DNA of 41,680 nt. Source: a virus. The position numbers were made by a program, and so were the translations under genes. Under the pieces are notes generated by a model. The model was not told the origin of the DNA. It ran no database searches and saw nothing but the letters and a program-made list of their open reading frames with translations. Within the stretch, counting starts at the first letter, position 1. Each line of letters begins with the position of its first letter. This document shows, in pieces, positions 33,676 through 41,680 of this stretch. The DNA lies in the IMG/VR virus record IMGVR_UViG_3300047557_002709, positions 1 through 41,680 of that record; one strand, given 5' to 3'.

Positions 33676-34125
33676 ATGGGTTTAACTGTTGAAGAATATT
33701 TTGCACAAAAAGAAGCATGTGCTCACTGTGCTGAACATGGTAATGAAGAACATTGTGTTACGACACTTCTGAGTAGAAAAGAAAACTGTTTTGTATACAA
33801 TATAACACACTATGGTATAGGTGAATACAATGAGAAACAGTTGGAATTATTGAGAGAGTTTAGAAACAATTCAACAGAAGAAGAAAATGTGGATTATTAT
33901 GTTAGATGTGATAAATTAATTTCTAAGATGGGTATTTTAGAAAAACCATATCATGAACAGATTTCAATTTATAGTGGAATAAATTACAGATACATAAGAG
34001 AAGTTGTATTTGCTTTAACTGATAATGAAAAAGAAAAAGCAAAACACATAATAAATACTATGTTAAAAGTTCTTGAAACAGAGAATAACATATCGAAGGA
34101 ATTAAATGACTACGACAATTATTGA
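33676..34125 (+). CDS. Small Cys/His-rich hypothetical protein between split tail genes
   Basis: 149 residues. Near the N-terminus is a Cys/His cluster (C15, C18, C27, with H17, H21 and H26) that could bind a metal. The rest is a charged helical protein with a YIREVVFAL-like helix. It lies between the CFI-box end of the giant tail protein and the DPVAQTF protein, overlapping the latter by 20 bases. No family is recognised. It could assist the CFI-box domain, but that is inference from position only. Confidence 0.7.
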   Translation: MGLTVEEYFAQKEACAHCAEHGNEEHCVTTLLSRKENCFVYNITHYGIGEYNEKQLELLREFRNNSTEEENVDYYVRCDKLISKMGILEKPYHEQISIYSGINYRYIREVVFALTDNEKEKAKHIINTMLKVLETENNISKELNDYDNY

Positions 34126-35978: not shown

Positions 35979-38900
35979 ATGGCTAATACAGTTACCGCTA
36001 TAAGTTATGCTAATACATTTGGCGATTGGGTTGTTGCAACCAATGCATTAATTGGTGAAAACAACATACTTGCCGGTGGAGATTACAATAAAACTTCAGG
36101 CACACTTTACTTGAATGAAACAGTACAAAACGCACTTCAATCAAACGGTACTGTCGTTATCCAGAAACAACTGTTGGTTCAAGGTGTTGGTTCATCAGGA
36201 ACTATTCAAAATAACTTAACTGTTGGTGGCCAAGTATATTTTACGAACACAACATTGGGTTTAACGAATTCTGGACAAGCTAATATTGATGGTTTGTTAC
36301 TCGCACAAGGACCAAATATTGGTTTAAGTGTTTCTAATAATGCATTTGTTGCCGGTAATACTACAATAAGACTTAATACAATAACAAATATATTACAAGC
36401 AAATTCAATAGTTAATACTGCAAACGCTAGTATTACCGGCACAACTTATTCAGGAATACTACAAGGTAATACCAGAACTCTGACTGGTATACTAACGGCA
36501 AATACAAATGTTTATACAGATGCATTGCAAGCAAATAATAAAATATTAACCGAATATGTAACTTCAAACACAAAAGTTTTTACAAATTTTGTACAAGCCA
36601 ATTCTTCGGTATTAACTGGTATATTAACAGCAAATACAAATGTTTATACAAACATTTTACAATCTAACACATCTGTAACTACCGATGTTTTGACATCCAA
36701 TACATCTGTGTTAACAGGTAGTTTACAATCCAATACTTCTGTTTTAACCGCTGCATTACAATCCAACAATTCTATATTGACCGGTTCTTTGCAAGCCAAT
36801 ACTACAACCAATACACAAATATTATCTGTAACACAAGAAACTTTTACAAACAGATTACAAGCAAATAATAGTATCACTGCGCCAATCATTAATGCAAATA
36901 CACTCGTAGTTGCAGCAAATATAGTTTCAAATAATGATATTAGCGCAGTTGGTGATATATTCACAAATAATTTACAAGCAAATACAAATATTGTCAGTGG
37001 TACAATTGAAGCAAATACAACTATTGTAGGAAAAGTTGAAGTAAGAACTCCATTGTTAACTGCTGAAAACATTCGCGCAAATACTACAGCTATAGTTGAA
37101 GCTTTATCGGTCAATTCTTCCACTTTCATAGCCGGTTCATTACAAGTTGCTGGTGATTTTACAACATTAGGTAGATCACTGATAGACACAAATGAAATAC
37201 TTTTAAAGGCTACTAACAAACAAACGCCAGGCGCAGGTTTTGATTATATTTCAGTTAATAGAACTAATTCTAGTGGCAATTTTGATGGTTTTACTGATTA
37301 CATTTATTCACCATCACATGGTTTCACAACCGGACAAAATGTTTCTTTCACATTATTGAGTTCTTCATTATCAGTTATTGCAAATAATGTAACATACAGA
37401 GTTTTAAATCAAAACACAAATTATTTCCAAGTTGCAACAACCGCAACACCATCAACACCAATTAATTTTATTGGTTCTGGCTCAGGTACAATTTCCGATT
37501 TAGATAGAAGAAATGCTGAATTCCGTTGGAATGAACCACAAAAATTTTGGGATATTATAAATGTTGATGATGGATTTCATTACAGAGTTTTAACCGCTGA
37601 TCTTTTTAATGATACTGTTACAAACACAAGTACATCATTAGTTGCAACAGCAAACTCAGTAAATGCAGCAAGTATTAACGCAGCGAGTGCTGCAACATAT
37701 GCAAATGGTGCTTTTAGACAAGCTAATGCAGCATTCACACAAGCCAATACTGCTACCAATAATGCAGCTGGAGCTTCCTTGTATGCTAATGGTGCGTTTA
37801 TACAAGCCAATGCTGCATTTGGTAGTCAAAATACTACAGGTTCTTATGCTAATTCAGCATATACTCAAGCCAATACTGCAACCAATAATGCAGCTAGTGC
37901 TTCCTTGTATGCTAATTCGGCATTTTTAAGAGCTAATACTCCAACGCATGTAGCTAATTCAGCATCATTGTATGCAAATGGTGCTTTTGTGCAAGCTAAT
38001 GCGGCTTATAGTTCACAAAATACAACCGGATCATACGCAAACTCGGCATACAGCCAAGCCAATACTGCTACCAATAATGCAGCTGGTGCTTCATTATATG
38101 CCAACGGTGCTTTCATACAAGCTAATGCTGCGTTCCTAAGGGCTAATACACCAAGTCATGTAGCCAACTCAGCAGCACTTTACGCTAATGGCGCTTTCAT
38201 ACAAGCCAATGCTGCATTTGGTAGTCAAAATACTACAGGTTCTTATGCTAATTCAGCTTATGCACAAGCCAATACTGCTACAAATGATGCTTCTGGTGCT
38301 TCCTTGTATGCTAATGGTGCTTTTAGACACGCTAATGCTGCATTTGCAACAGCCAACAGTGCAGCAATAAACTTAACAAATGCAAGCAACTTAACTTCTG
38401 GTACTGTAGCTCTTGCGAGATTAAGTGGAATAACCACAAGTCAATTAAGTGCCACAGCGGGAATTACAAACTCTCAACTAGCTAGCAGCACAATTTCTGG
38501 TGTTGCTCTGGGTGGAACTTTAGCTTCACATTCAGCCGGTTCTTATTTGAATGGTAACGCATATAACGGTAGCGCATCACAAACTTGGTCTGTTAATGCA
38601 ACAACTACAAACACTGCTGGTGCAATTGCTGCGAGAGATGGTGCAGGTGATATATACGCAACGGTATTCAGAGGCCTTGCAACTAGTGCTAATTACGCTG
38701 ACTTGGCAGAAAAATACCTAGCTGATCAAGATTATGAAGTTGGTACAGTTATTGTTGTTGGTGGTGAAAAAGAAGTTACCGCCAGTTCGTATGGCGATAG
38801 AGCAATTGGTGTAGTATCTGAACAACCTGCATATATGATGAATAGTGAACTTGAAGGTGGAACTTATATTGCACTTAAAGGTAGAGTGCCAGTGAAAGTA

Positions 38901-39050
38901 TCTGGAACTATACGTAAAGGACAACGTTTGGTTGCATACAACAATGGCACAGCAGTTGCAGCAGTACCACATGCAAATGACGTTTTTGCTATCGCATTAG
39001 AATCCAGTGATGATACTGGAGTAAAACTGATTGAAGCAGTGATTTTATAA
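35979..39050 (+). CDS. Large repetitive tail-fibre-like protein
   Basis: 1023 residues. Residues 161-281 are eleven perfect 11-residue units (LQSNTSVLTGS-like). Residues about 370-540 are a globular beta-domain (DTNEILLKATNKQ... FRWNEPQKFWDIIN). Residues 574-797 are thirty-two 7-residue units (YANGAFI, QANAAFG and relatives). The C-terminal 120 residues begin ADLAEKYLADQDYEVGTVIVVGG and end VKLIEAVIL, a domain common at the end of aquatic-phage tail proteins, probably a cap or trimerisation domain. It abuts the small coiled-coil gene upstream. Likely a long fibre that contacts the host. Confidence 0.85.
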   Translation: MANTVTAISYANTFGDWVVATNALIGENNILAGGDYNKTSGTLYLNETVQNALQSNGTVVIQKQLLVQGVGSSGTIQNNLTVGGQVYFTNTTLGLTNSGQANIDGLLLAQGPNIGLSVSNNAFVAGNTTIRLNTITNILQANSIVNTANASITGTTYSGILQGNTRTLTGILTANTNVYTDALQANNKILTEYVTSNTKVFTNFVQANSSVLTGILTANTNVYTNILQSNTSVTTDVLTSNTSVLTGSLQSNTSVLTAALQSNNSILTGSLQANTTTNTQILSVTQETFTNRLQANNSITAPIINANTLVVAANIVSNNDISAVGDIFTNNLQANTNIVSGTIEANTTIVGKVEVRTPLLTAENIRANTTAIVEALSVNSSTFIAGSLQVAGDFTTLGRSLIDTNEILLKATNKQTPGAGFDYISVNRTNSSGNFDGFTDYIYSPSHGFTTGQNVSFTLLSSSLSVIANNVTYRVLNQNTNYFQVATTATPSTPINFIGSGSGTISDLDRRNAEFRWNEPQKFWDIINVDDGFHYRVLTADLFNDTVTNTSTSLVATANSVNAASINAASAATYANGAFRQANAAFTQANTATNNAAGASLYANGAFIQANAAFGSQNTTGSYANSAYTQANTATNNAASASLYANSAFLRANTPTHVANSASLYANGAFVQANAAYSSQNTTGSYANSAYSQANTATNNAAGASLYANGAFIQANAAFLRANTPSHVANSAALYANGAFIQANAAFGSQNTTGSYANSAYAQANTATNDASGASLYANGAFRHANAAFATANSAAINLTNASNLTSGTVALARLSGITTSQLSATAGITNSQLASSTISGVALGGTLASHSAGSYLNGNAYNGSASQTWSVNATTTNTAGAIAARDGAGDIYATVFRGLATSANYADLAEKYLADQDYEVGTVIVVGGEKEVTASSYGDRAIGVVSEQPAYMMNSELEGGTYIALKGRVPVKVSGTIRKGQRLVAYNNGTAVAAVPHANDVFAIALESSDDTGVKLIEAVIL
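36459..36821 (+). repeat. Eleven 33-bp coding repeats (11-residue units)
   Basis: Eleven consecutive 11-residue units with the pattern [LV]-[QT]-x-N-x-x-x-[LYFT]-T-x-x, spanning residues 161-281 with no insertions. Hydrophobic positions 1, 7 and 8 repeat regularly, which suggests a beta-solenoid or a hendecad fibre shaft. Confidence 0.9.
37698..38369 (+). repeat. Thirty-two 21-bp coding repeats (7-residue units)
   Basis: Thirty-two consecutive 7-residue units spanning residues 574-797. Most carry Ala-Asn at positions 2-3 and a small or aromatic residue at 5-6. A larger, nearly identical block (unit order YANGAFI, QANAAFG, SQNTTGS, YANSAYT, QANTATN, NAAGASL) recurs, so recent duplications are likely. 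Confidence 0.92.
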
Positions 39051-39055
39051 ATTTC

Positions 39056-39097
39056 GAAATCCTGCGCGGAGCTCCGAAAAAAATTTGCGCTGATTTC
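39056..39097. promoter_or_regulatory. GC-rich intergenic hairpin element
   Basis: An AT-rich surround gives way to a GC-rich island after the fibre gene. GAAATC (39056-39061) pairs with GATTTC (39092-39097), and inner GCGC pairs with GCGC. The perfect palindrome CGGAGCTCCG (39067-39076) lies in the loop. There is no T-tract immediately after it, so it is not a standard terminator. It may be a transcript-end or processing structure, or a module boundary for the cassette that follows. Confidence 0.55.
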
Positions 39098-39105
39098 AAA
39101 AGTCC

Positions 39106-39125
39106 AAAAAGCGATTTTACTTTTA
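39106..39125 (+). repeat. 20-bp intergenic repeat, copy 2
   Basis: Identical to 20040-20059. Its last base is the A of the cupin-like gene's ATG (39125). Copy 1 lies upstream of the late promoter of gp25; copy 2 has no TATAAATA after it. A shared upstream element for late transcription, or a recombination footprint, are both possible. Confidence 0.7.
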
Positions 39126-39547
39126 TGAATTTTGATTTTTTATATAATGGTAACTTAGCAATGATCATTGACAATCATGGCCGAGATCATATTATAAATT
39201 TCGATTTAGTCGATTACTATATAGCAGAAGAAAAATACACAGTCAAGGTTGAAGGTTTGGAAGAATATTTCTCTGAATACCTACCAAACACTGTTCATTG
39301 TTATATTTCTCCAAAAAATGCGAAAAGTTTTCCAGAACATTTAGACCCAATTGATGTTAAAATTGTCTGTATTGATGGAACAAAAACTTTAAAAGTAAAA
39401 AACGAAAACGTGATTTTGAAAAAAGGTGAAAGTATTTTGATACCTGCAAATACTTCACATCAAGCAACAAATCATTATGATTCAATAATTTTATCTATTG
39501 GTTATGAAAGAACTACTGATTTACTTAAAAACAACAGAAACCTGTAA
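39125..39547 (+). CDS. Cupin-like protein at the head of the radical SAM cassette
   Basis: 140 residues. The second half has the small-barrel pattern of cupins: LKVKNENVILKKGESILIPANTSHQATN, with the turn GESILIPANTSHQ matching the second cupin motif (Gly-x5-Pro-x-x-x-x-His). The usual first metal-binding motif (HxH...E) is not evident, so it may be non-enzymatic or bind a peptide. The 3' end overlaps the radical SAM frame by 44 bases, so expression is linked. In modification clusters such a protein could carry or recognise the substrate. Confidence 0.7.
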   Translation: MNFDFLYNGNLAMIIDNHGRDHIINFDLVDYYIAEEKYTVKVEGLEEYFSEYLPNTVHCYISPKNAKSFPEHLDPIDVKIVCIDGTKTLKVKNENVILKKGESILIPANTSHQATNHYDSIILSIGYERTTDLLKNNRNL

Positions 39548-40562
39548 TTTAAATTGTAAACATTGTTTTACAAATGGTAGTAATGGATCCAAAATATATT
39601 GGAATCACGTAAAAGTTGCAGATTGGTTAAAAAGATTAAATAAAGAAATGCCAAGTGCGCCACACGTACATTTGGAATTTCATGGAGGAGAACCTTTTCT
39701 AGCAGATATCGAAACACTACAATATGTTTATGATAACTGCCAAAATTTATGGAAAAGCCAGAGTTGGGGTATCACAACCAATCTAACATTCAAACTCGAC
39801 CAAGAAAAAATCGACTTCATTATGGGTCCATTAGGTGGCAGAGTCGGCACTAGTTGGGATCCAGATATTCGATTTGCAAACCCAAAACAATATGATTTGT
39901 GGAGAAAAAATGTACAAACACTGATTGATTTGGGTGTTGTTGTCAAATTATTCATTAGTGTAACAAAAGGTACAATTGAGATTGAACCCATAGAACTACT
40001 TGAATGGGTCAGATCACTTGGTGTCAAAGAATTAGCACTAGAACGATTAACAATGAATGGTAGTGCAAAACAAAACTTGCACATATTTCCCACAAACATT
40101 GAACAAGACCAATGGTTTTTAAAAATGCATCAACAGAGTGAAGAACATGGTGCGAGAGACTGGTTCGACAACGAATTTTTAGAAACAATATATTCAAAAT
40201 TTGAAAAAAATTTCAATGCTGGTGGTACTTTTTGTAGAGATTGTGAAGAAAAATTATTCACATTAAATGCAGATGGAACTATATCTGGATGTCCAAATTC
40301 TGCACCAGAATTTCAATTTGGAAAAATAGATGACACCATAGAAACTCTTATAAATAGTCCAACTAGAATTGAAAATATTGCATGTGAAAGGTCTAGAGAT
40401 CCTAGATGTTATTCTTGTGATGTTTTTGAATATTGCGGTGGAGACTGCCATCAACTTGAATGGGAAGAAAACGTGTGTGGTGCACCAAAAAGTTTGATGA
40501 AGTTTTTAAAATATAGTCAAAAAAGAAAAGTATGGATGATAAAAGATGGCAACATTAACTAG
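39504..40562 (+). CDS. Radical SAM/SPASM peptide-modifying enzyme
   Basis: 352 residues, with the start at the ATG at 39504 (an upstream TTG at 39498 is less likely). The radical SAM cluster motif C14-X3-C18-X2-C21 (TCNLNCKHC) is followed by HLEFHGGEPF (GGEP 61-64). The C-terminal SPASM domain is complete: C247 and C263 with G258-x4-C263, then C302-x2-C305-x5-C311-x3-C315-x9-C325. C244 and C294 are extra cysteines. SPASM enzymes bind auxiliary 4Fe-4S clusters and modify peptides (for example thioether or carbon-carbon links, or formylglycine formation). It overlaps both neighbours, the cupin-like gene before and the Cys-His-Ser protein after (17 bases), so that protein is the obvious substrate. 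Confidence 0.93.
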   Translation: MKELLIYLKTTETCNLNCKHCFTNGSNGSKIYWNHVKVADWLKRLNKEMPSAPHVHLEFHGGEPFLADIETLQYVYDNCQNLWKSQSWGITTNLTFKLDQEKIDFIMGPLGGRVGTSWDPDIRFANPKQYDLWRKNVQTLIDLGVVVKLFISVTKGTIEIEPIELLEWVRSLGVKELALERLTMNGSAKQNLHIFPTNIEQDQWFLKMHQQSEEHGARDWFDNEFLETIYSKFEKNFNAGGTFCRDCEEKLFTLNADGTISGCPNSAPEFQFGKIDDTIETLINSPTRIENIACERSRDPRCYSCDVFEYCGGDCHQLEWEENVCGAPKSLMKFLKYSQKRKVWMIKDGNIN

Positions 40563-41115
40563 TCCTGTAAGAACACAAAATATTGTCGATAGATTTGCTG
40601 ATTATGTAACAGCAACAGCAGCTTCGGGAATTTCTTGGGGAACAAACGCCAAGCCATTTGCTGAAATGCCCGATTCAACTTTTGGTGGCACAACCAGTGG
40701 AAGATCAATAGGCATATCAGGAGGTAATATTGGTTCTGGATTAATTACAGCATCAAATATTTACAACACACTTGTAAATGAAACTACACAATATACATCA
40801 ATTAGAAACCTGCGCGCAATACTAAATGTACTAGGTGACGGCGGCAATCTTGGTACACGTCCAGGTCAATTAGGTTATATTTACGATCAGACGGCCGTTG
40901 CATATATGAATACAAATTATCTTCAAAGTATTGGTTCACCAGGAAATGCCGGCGTGGCTTCTGGAAATGTAATCTCTACTGTAAATTTAGAATCATTTTT
41001 TAATACACTTAGAAATTCATATAATAGTGCAAGAGCAACCACAGCAACAGTCCAAGTTGATGTTTGTCACTCATCTTGTCACTCAGCATGTCACAGTTCC
41101 AGATCCAGGAGATAA
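40546..41115 (+). CDS. Probable substrate with C-terminal Cys-His-Ser repeats
   Basis: 189 residues. The first 170 are Gly/Ser/Thr/Asn-rich and look like a small virion domain: SIRNLRAILNVLGDGG and TVNLESFFNTLRNSYN helices, with no cysteine. The C-terminus is VDVCHSSCHSACHSSRSRR: three Cys-His-Ser-x units (C174, C178, C182) followed by a basic tail. These are the only cysteines in the protein. Overlap with the radical SAM gene, terminal position and repeated motif make it a strong candidate substrate, resembling in logic (not in demonstrated homology) His-Xaa-Ser and other repeat-bearing precursors. The basic tail may be a recognition or retained anchor. It is unlike a short leader-core precursor because its N-terminal domain is large. 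Confidence 0.85.
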   Translation: MATLTSPVRTQNIVDRFADYVTATAASGISWGTNAKPFAEMPDSTFGGTTSGRSIGISGGNIGSGLITASNIYNTLVNETTQYTSIRNLRAILNVLGDGGNLGTRPGQLGYIYDQTAVAYMNTNYLQSIGSPGNAGVASGNVISTVNLESFFNTLRNSYNSARATTATVQVDVCHSSCHSACHSSRSRR

Positions 41116-41117
41116 TA

Positions 41118-41680
41118 ATGAATATTATTGAAACAACCGCACCAATATCTATTGATAATTTAAAAAAATACTTTGCTGACAAAACAACTTTTTTTATTAT
41201 CAATTATAAAGATAGTGCTCTAAAAAACACAAAATTATTAACTTATCTTTCAAATTTAGATATACCTTGTGATGTTAATTTTAAGGATTGTTCGGAAAAA
41301 GAATGTTTTGATATGATCAAAGACTATTTAAACACACAAACTATTGTTAATATTCCTTCTTTAGAAAAAGCAACCATTGGTATTTTGCAACAAACAAAAG
41401 GATTGGTTCCTATTGTTGACAAAGATTTTATTGAGGAAAACAAAGAAATATTAAATAAGTGGATATCAAAATTAGAAAGTTTGACTCTTTATAATATGTA
41501 TATTGTTAAAGATGAAACTTTTAAAGAGTTTGTTAACAGTTTCCCTGTCGATGAAACAAAAGAAATGACTGGAGTTAATTTTGTTAGTTTACTAAAACAC
41601 CAAAATTTTTATTCTTTCTACCAAAATACAAATCAGAGTCATTTGAAATTTTATCCATATTATTTTAATGAATATATTTT
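41118..41680 (+). CDS. Fourth cassette gene of unknown function (3'-partial)
   Basis: An ATG at 41118 follows AGGAG (41107-41111) and the stop of the Cys-His-Ser protein by two bases. The frame stays open to the window end (187 codons). It begins MNIIETTAPISIDNLKKYF, has FFIINYKDS and a polar, helical middle, and is rich in Lys, Asn and Leu with aromatic residues. I do not recognise a domain. It could be a partner of the modification system or the next structural gene. Confidence 0.75.
   Translation, partial: MNIIETTAPISIDNLKKYFADKTTFFIINYKDSALKNTKLLTYLSNLDIPCDVNFKDCSEKECFDMIKDYLNTQTIVNIPSLEKATIGILQQTKGLVPIVDKDFIEENKEILNKWISKLESLTLYNMYIVKDETFKEFVNSFPVDETKEMTGVNFVSLLKHQNFYSFYQNTNQSHLKFYPYYFNEYI

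Follow-up and report, generated by a model that had tools for sequence, protein, structure and literature searches.

We propose, with a probability of roughly 0.7, that a gene island downstream of a phage tail-fiber gene is a dedicated post-translational modification system, and that its substrate is the short C-terminal tail, built of Cys-His units, of a virion, probably fiber-associated, protein (the CHxS protein). The window is the whole stretch of DNA analyzed here, a virus record of 41,680 bases with T4-like tail genes. All four genes that the first-pass annotation had recognized there (cupin-like, radical SAM/SPASM, Cys-His-tailed, and a fourth) were found, and the overlaps it gave are correct: 44 bases between the cupin and radical SAM genes, and 17 between the radical SAM and CHxS genes. 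The features are the following:

35979..39050, + strand: tail-fiber gene, 1023 aa (phrog tail fiber), with a C-terminal Peptidase_G2 / IMC-type domain (PF11962, E 5.8e-7)
39125..39547, + strand: cupin / JmjC_2-like protein, 140 aa (PF08007, E 6.6e-10), with the triad H72-x-D74...H112
39504..40562, + strand: radical SAM/SPASM enzyme, 352 aa from the ATG (SPASM TIGR04085; phrog_1802, E 4e-69)
39543..39566, + strand: codons of the radical SAM cluster motif, C-N-L-N-C-K-H-C
40546..41115, + strand: CHxS protein, 189 aa, the proposed substrate; a predicted compact alpha/beta body, then a tail predicted to be disordered
41065..41112, + strand: core tail CHSSCHSACHSSRSRR, residues 174-189, with the stop codon directly after
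41118..41680, + strand: gene 4 (phrog_20767), a conserved partner, open at the window end

The sole radical-SAM-type ORF inside the window spans 39498-40562, with the TTG at 39498 as a possible alternative start. Two further observations concern the surrounding tail genes: a 149-aa protein with clustered cysteines is encoded among them at 33676-34125 and is kept in a relative (L011, 134-583), and the shaft of the tail fiber (about 37600-38360) carries YANGAFIQANAAF-type repeats, probably phased fiber repeats.

The only cysteines of the CHxS protein fall within residues 174-185, as had been noted at the outset; the repeating unit, given at that time as Cys-His-Ser-x, is actually Cys-His-x-(Ser/Asn/Ala), and the conserved motif reaches on to a C-terminal R-x-R-R. 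The tail can accordingly be written as C-H-x-[S/N/A] three times, then R-x-R-R. Across 81 distinct tails among the matches listed, C1, H2, C5, H6, C9, H10, R13, R15, and R16 are invariant, positions 4, 8, and 12 are Ser or Asn and rarely Ala or Lys (the second unit of the window tail ends in Ala), and positions 3, 7, and 11 are variable. The tail search pattern itself demanded most of these invariant positions; the enzyme-side search described below, which made no such demand, returned the same tails. A relaxed degenerate DNA version of the pattern matched the window once, at 41065-41113, and had no match in 100 shuffles. Synonymous codons vary freely at the invariant positions (for example, TGT 93, TGC 56), indicating that the constraint acts on the protein.

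The bodies that carry this tail differ down to 26-30% identity and range from about 125 to 364 residues in length, with the tail unchanged. The AlphaFold model of the CHxS protein has a pLDDT of 87.1 overall and of about 53 in the last ten residues; the tail is thus predicted to be disordered, which would leave it accessible. A fold search with the body gave no significant PDB match, and its BFVD matches are uncharacterized phage proteins of its own family only, including the CHxS protein of Atu_ph07. At another locus (L094, 8105-8878), which has at least seven radical SAM genes, a four-unit CHxx protein (CHSNCHSNCHSNCHTNRSRR) is encoded.

The radical SAM motif and the SPASM cysteine pattern read from the window alone are both correct and are conserved in relatives of the enzyme. 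In an alignment, the three cysteines of CNLNCKHC are invariant in 34 of 34 relatives; among the SPASM-region cysteines (246, 249, 265, 304, 307, 313, 317, and 327), seven are invariant in the same 34 and C246 is present in 33. The SPASM model TIGR04085 is matched above its cut-off (35.1 bits against 27). No specific NCBIfam maturase family reaches its cut-off with the window protein: the best match, PapB, scores 56.3 bits against 340, anSME 42.7 against 349, and HxsB 39.2 against 370. A PDB profile match to the anSME structures 4k36-4k39 spans the full length of the enzyme. Judged by its sequence, the enzyme is of the radical SAM/SPASM maturation type in its predicted chemistry and lies outside every curated maturase family tested. 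Two specific identities were tried and rejected, namely a formylglycine-making anSME role, because Pro-Asn (CPN) replaces the anSME Asp (PCD, within PCDF) after the SPASM Cys in 34 of 34 sequences, and the anti-phage protein viperin, for which PADLOC gave a partial core match only.

The cupin encoded just upstream scores 39.1 bits against JmjC_2 (PF08007; cut-off 22). The HxD...H facial triad of Fe(II) oxygenases (H72, D74, H112) is invariant in a 33-sequence cupin alignment, and the PDB relatives of the cupin include the MINA histidyl-hydroxylase.

The association between enzyme and tail was approached from both sides. On the enzyme side, viral contigs were searched with the radical SAM protein alone as the query, giving 55 loci, among which there are near-duplicates. 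In 53 of these, the gene directly downstream, or one or two genes further on, codes for a protein with the C-terminus CHxxCHxxCHxxRxRR, and the remaining two (L041, L056) are ended by the contig edge, so that all 53 uncut loci have the tailed protein. It is likewise present in all six enzyme-bearing phage isolates: Atu_ph07 (two records), Phosso, FLC6, FLC8, SURPRISE13, and DT01. On the tail side, the pattern scan comprised at least 120 viral stretches and 16 bacterial-genome stretches; two of the 16 genome-collection matches (L188, L197) were dropped, as they are not ORF C-termini. The matches listed include 146 motif genes in loci no shorter than 4 kb; for 140 of them a radical-SAM-type gene lies no more than 5 kb away, and for the other six the locus edge cuts at least one side. 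On the upstream side, these radical-SAM-type genes are common within the first kilobase and near-absent past 2 kb; on the downstream side, they stay dense to 8 kb or more. The first-pass annotation had staked its proposal on this linkage, to be given up if homologs of the CHxS protein regularly lacked a radical SAM neighbor; they do not, in the uncut loci or around the motif genes. The co-occurrence that it suggested checking for the gene at 41118 also holds: among the matches listed, 76 of 87 loci have gene 4 no more than 5 kb downstream.

The description of the window as a four-gene system stands as regards the four genes, but the cassette runs kilobases past gene 4 in close relatives (L001/L011), in which the CHxS protein is 77% identical and the genes downstream of gene 4 can be seen; in the present phage these genes fall outside the window. 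Neighbor clustering gives a recurrent order, FIB-CUP-rSAM-CHxS-g4-g5-enzymes. The downstream enzymes vary and include radical SAM enzymes, 2OG-Fe(II) oxygenases (PF13640), large radical SAM enzymes, and others; in the large radical SAM member that was scanned in detail, a B12-binding domain (PF02310) was matched below the gathering score. Two to six radical-SAM-type genes are present in 40 of 40 loci, among the matches listed, with at least 6 kb of downstream sequence. The island also carries two conserved families without assigned function, g4 and g5. The structure model of gene 4 is confident, and a fold search with it gave no significant PDB match. In Burkholderia phage SURPRISE13 (L009, 12375-14987), the radical SAM island contains a pair of neighboring genes annotated as dihydrofolate reductase.

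In a second class of loci (L066, L087, L096, L105, L114, L132, and others), the fiber gene is immediately followed by a tandem pair of CHxS genes, each coding for about 127 aa, and then, directly downstream, by a different radical SAM family, another uncharacterized gene, and gene 4. This class is without the upstream radical SAM enzyme, which counts against our preferred reading, and any of several radical SAM enzymes may act on the tail.

Of 95 loci among the matches listed, 73 encode a G2-type fiber domain no more than 4 kb upstream, those of Atu_ph07 and Phosso included; the Peptidase_G2-type domain of the window fiber is found in Atu_ph07 gp176 and also in Phosso. The tailed protein of Atu_ph07 is gp170. 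According to PMC6102473, mass spectrometry of the Atu_ph07 virion proteome assigned most virion proteins to CDS 31-76, 170-215, and 284-329, and the CDS numbering there matches the Atu_ph07 record at gp215, gp204, and gp198. By this agreement, the second virion block starts exactly at the tailed protein. The place of gp170 at the boundary of the stated range is suggestive, not proof, that the CHxS protein is a virion protein; together with the fiber gene upstream, it lends circumstantial support to the virion product that had been surmised from the window.

The system is not confined to phages, contrary to what a reading of the window alone had implied: similar cassettes are also found in Bdellovibrionota genomes and in Pseudomonas megaplasmids. 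The tail pattern occurs in 7 of 369 Bdellovibrionota genomes. In two of these (L212 and L214/L220), the cassette is chromosomal and flanked by ordinary bacterial genes. The genes at L212 6155-7192 and L220 9589-10917, which adjoin CHxS cassettes, encode chimeras that join a prepilin-type N-terminus to an S74 fiber chaperone at the C-terminus, and a prepilin-like N-terminus is encoded nearby in a third genome (L215). PMC10769870 describes S74 fibers as prey-contact proteins in Bdellovibrio. The Bdellovibrionota CHxS protein has no obvious signal peptide, which fits surface display poorly. A resemblance between a short Bdellovibrionota protein beside the S74 fiber and the C-terminus of the phage fiber was considered and rejected (no HMM match; hhalign probability 3.5%).

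In the plasmids, 129 Pseudomonas records contain the gene for a protein, some 125 aa long, that has a hydrophobic, signal-like N-terminus and looks exported. Its C-terminus is CHxACHGACHGACHG[SA]RGWR in the four records read in detail, where the tailed protein is encoded at the following positions:

L217, 7115-7501: plasmid tailed protein
L218, 10127-10501: plasmid tailed protein
L223, 7001-7375: plasmid tailed protein
L224, 5004-5378: plasmid tailed protein

At all four loci, the gene lies between two radical SAM groups and directly downstream of prepilin/type II secretion genes; g4 and g5 were not detected at the plasmid loci examined. PMC7070040 reports that distant plasmids retain the radical SAM cluster jointly with the type IV pilus and calls their functional association unclear, and PMC13391042 repeats the observation. 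Taking the phage, Bdellovibrionota, and plasmid loci together, similar tails and enzymes recur beside three kinds of extracellular filament. On a Photobacterium damselae plasmid (L219, 4527-4871), a signal-peptide-like protein ending in WCHNNHSNHSKHHHWKSW is encoded with radical SAM genes on either side and type IV pilus genes close by; this protein possibly forms a bridge to His-Xaa-Ser tails.

A thioether or other Cys-centered crosslink is the most usual outcome when SPASM enzymes act on Cys-rich targets. In the mechanism that we favor, the radical SAM/SPASM enzyme, translated just before the CHxS protein and overlapping it, would most likely make a radical bond or an oxidation at the invariant Cys and/or His; these are the likely targets, given that Asn and Ala can stand in for Ser. 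Further changes would probably be added by the cupin and by the enzymes encoded downstream (radical SAM, 2OG-Fe(II) oxygenases, sometimes B12 radical SAM), and the cupin or the oxygenases may hydroxylate His or Arg. Once finished, the tail would be borne on the virion by the folded body, most likely at or next to the tail fiber encoded upstream.

Other explanations account for parts of the same evidence. Invariance restricted to C, H, and R is what metal ligands typically show, and the tail might accordingly be an unmodified metal-binding element (3 Cys and 3 His per chain) with a role like that of the HxH iron sites of trimeric tail-fiber needles, such sites in phage fibers having been published (PMC11705849), while the radical SAM enzymes and oxygenases act elsewhere, for example on the fiber. 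We consider this unlikely, given that no uncut locus breaks the linkage of tail and radical SAM gene, that this linkage is seen again with unrelated plasmid proteins, that the SPASM domain marks protein- or peptide-modifying enzymes, and that no other shared candidate substrate was seen. It is improbable as well that the enzymes merely dock on the tail, or on its RxRR end, and modify residues elsewhere, in the body or the neighboring fiber: CHxS bodies have no invariant modifiable residues in common, although the strong invariance of the basic R-x-R-R end and a complement of enzymes larger than one short tail seems to need are both in keeping with such a recognition handle.

The enzyme set also resembles ribosomal natural-product clusters, and the plasmid version, with its signal-like N-terminus, looks exported, as would be expected if the island made a free secreted peptide (antimicrobial or signal) from a CHxS precursor cleaved after modification. 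However, no protease or exporter family was found among the conserved neighbors of the cassette, the body is predicted to be a conserved folded domain of about 170 aa, and the position beside tail genes and at the start of the published Atu_ph07 virion block argues for the particle; we therefore regard a free peptide as decidedly improbable. The sequence C-H-x-S-C-H contains Cx3CH, and overlapping motifs of this kind could in principle attach c-type heme. This is hardly credible, as heme c attachment needs periplasmic maturation and the phage CHxS proteins have no obvious signal peptide on sequence reading, and as it leaves the radical SAM linkage and the third unit unexplained.

If tail modification is correct, phages encode enzymes of the natural-product type with which they remodel a component of their own virion, of which we found no report in the literature searched. 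The open literature covered, mostly without subscription papers and without bioRxiv, describes no CHxS tail and no radical-SAM-modified phage structural protein, and an open-text search with the motif letters returned unrelated words only. The recurrence in phages, relatives of predatory bacteria, and drug-resistance megaplasmids, each time beside fiber or pilus genes, suggests that contact with other bacteria is made through a common chemistry that has yet to be described. More tentatively, extracellular filaments (phage tail fibers, Bdellovibrionota prepilin/S74 fibers, megaplasmid type IV pili) might bear CHxx tails as an undescribed cap for contact or metal chelation, built by enzymes, which engages the target envelope; as a chemical rather than a protein-sequence ligand, such a cap could stay invariant across hosts. 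If the tail is indeed modified, one chemistry would also link phage fibers, Bdellovibrionota fibers, and plasmid pili, and would offer a testable answer to the question raised by PMC7070040, namely why radical SAM clusters accompany type IV pili in Pseudomonas megaplasmids. Cultured phages that bear the cassette are at hand for direct testing (Atu_ph07, Phosso, FLC6, FLC8, SURPRISE13, and DT01).

Among known systems, PapB-type ranthipeptide and other SPASM RiPP maturases share with the phage cassette a radical SAM core, a SPASM domain, and an adjacent Cys-containing substrate, whereas the proposed phage substrate is a long protein that has invariant Cys-His pairs and is encoded among virion genes. 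The anSME enzymes share the eight conserved SPASM-region cysteines but differ in that the phage cassette has no sulfatase substrate and has Pro-Asn in place of Asp. In the pBT2436/IncP-2 megaplasmids, several radical SAM genes surround the gene of a protein whose C-terminus is four CHxA units and RGWR, beside prepilin genes; the synteny of radical SAM cluster and pilus is reported in PMC7070040 and PMC13391042, the covered passages of which do not mention the tailed protein. The MAT fibers of Bdellovibrio are described in PMC10769870, and S74-chaperone fiber genes adjoin CHxS cassettes in some Bdellovibrionota. Unlike the MAT fibers, the neighbors of the Bdellovibrionota cassettes have prepilin-like N-termini.

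In the HxsABCD system, a substrate with a repeat tail of His-x-Ser units is served by dedicated radical SAM maturases. PMC9062424 cites Hxs as a putative maturation system. An NCBIfam search gave no HxsA match for the CHxS protein, the tandem-class protein, or the plasmid protein. HxsABCD (TIGR03976-TIGR03979) is nevertheless the nearest system in concept, with its combination of a repeat-tailed substrate and dedicated radical SAM enzymes; the phage version differs in that its unit opens with an invariant Cys, and in that oxygenases, the cupin, g4, and g5 replace HxsC/HxsD.
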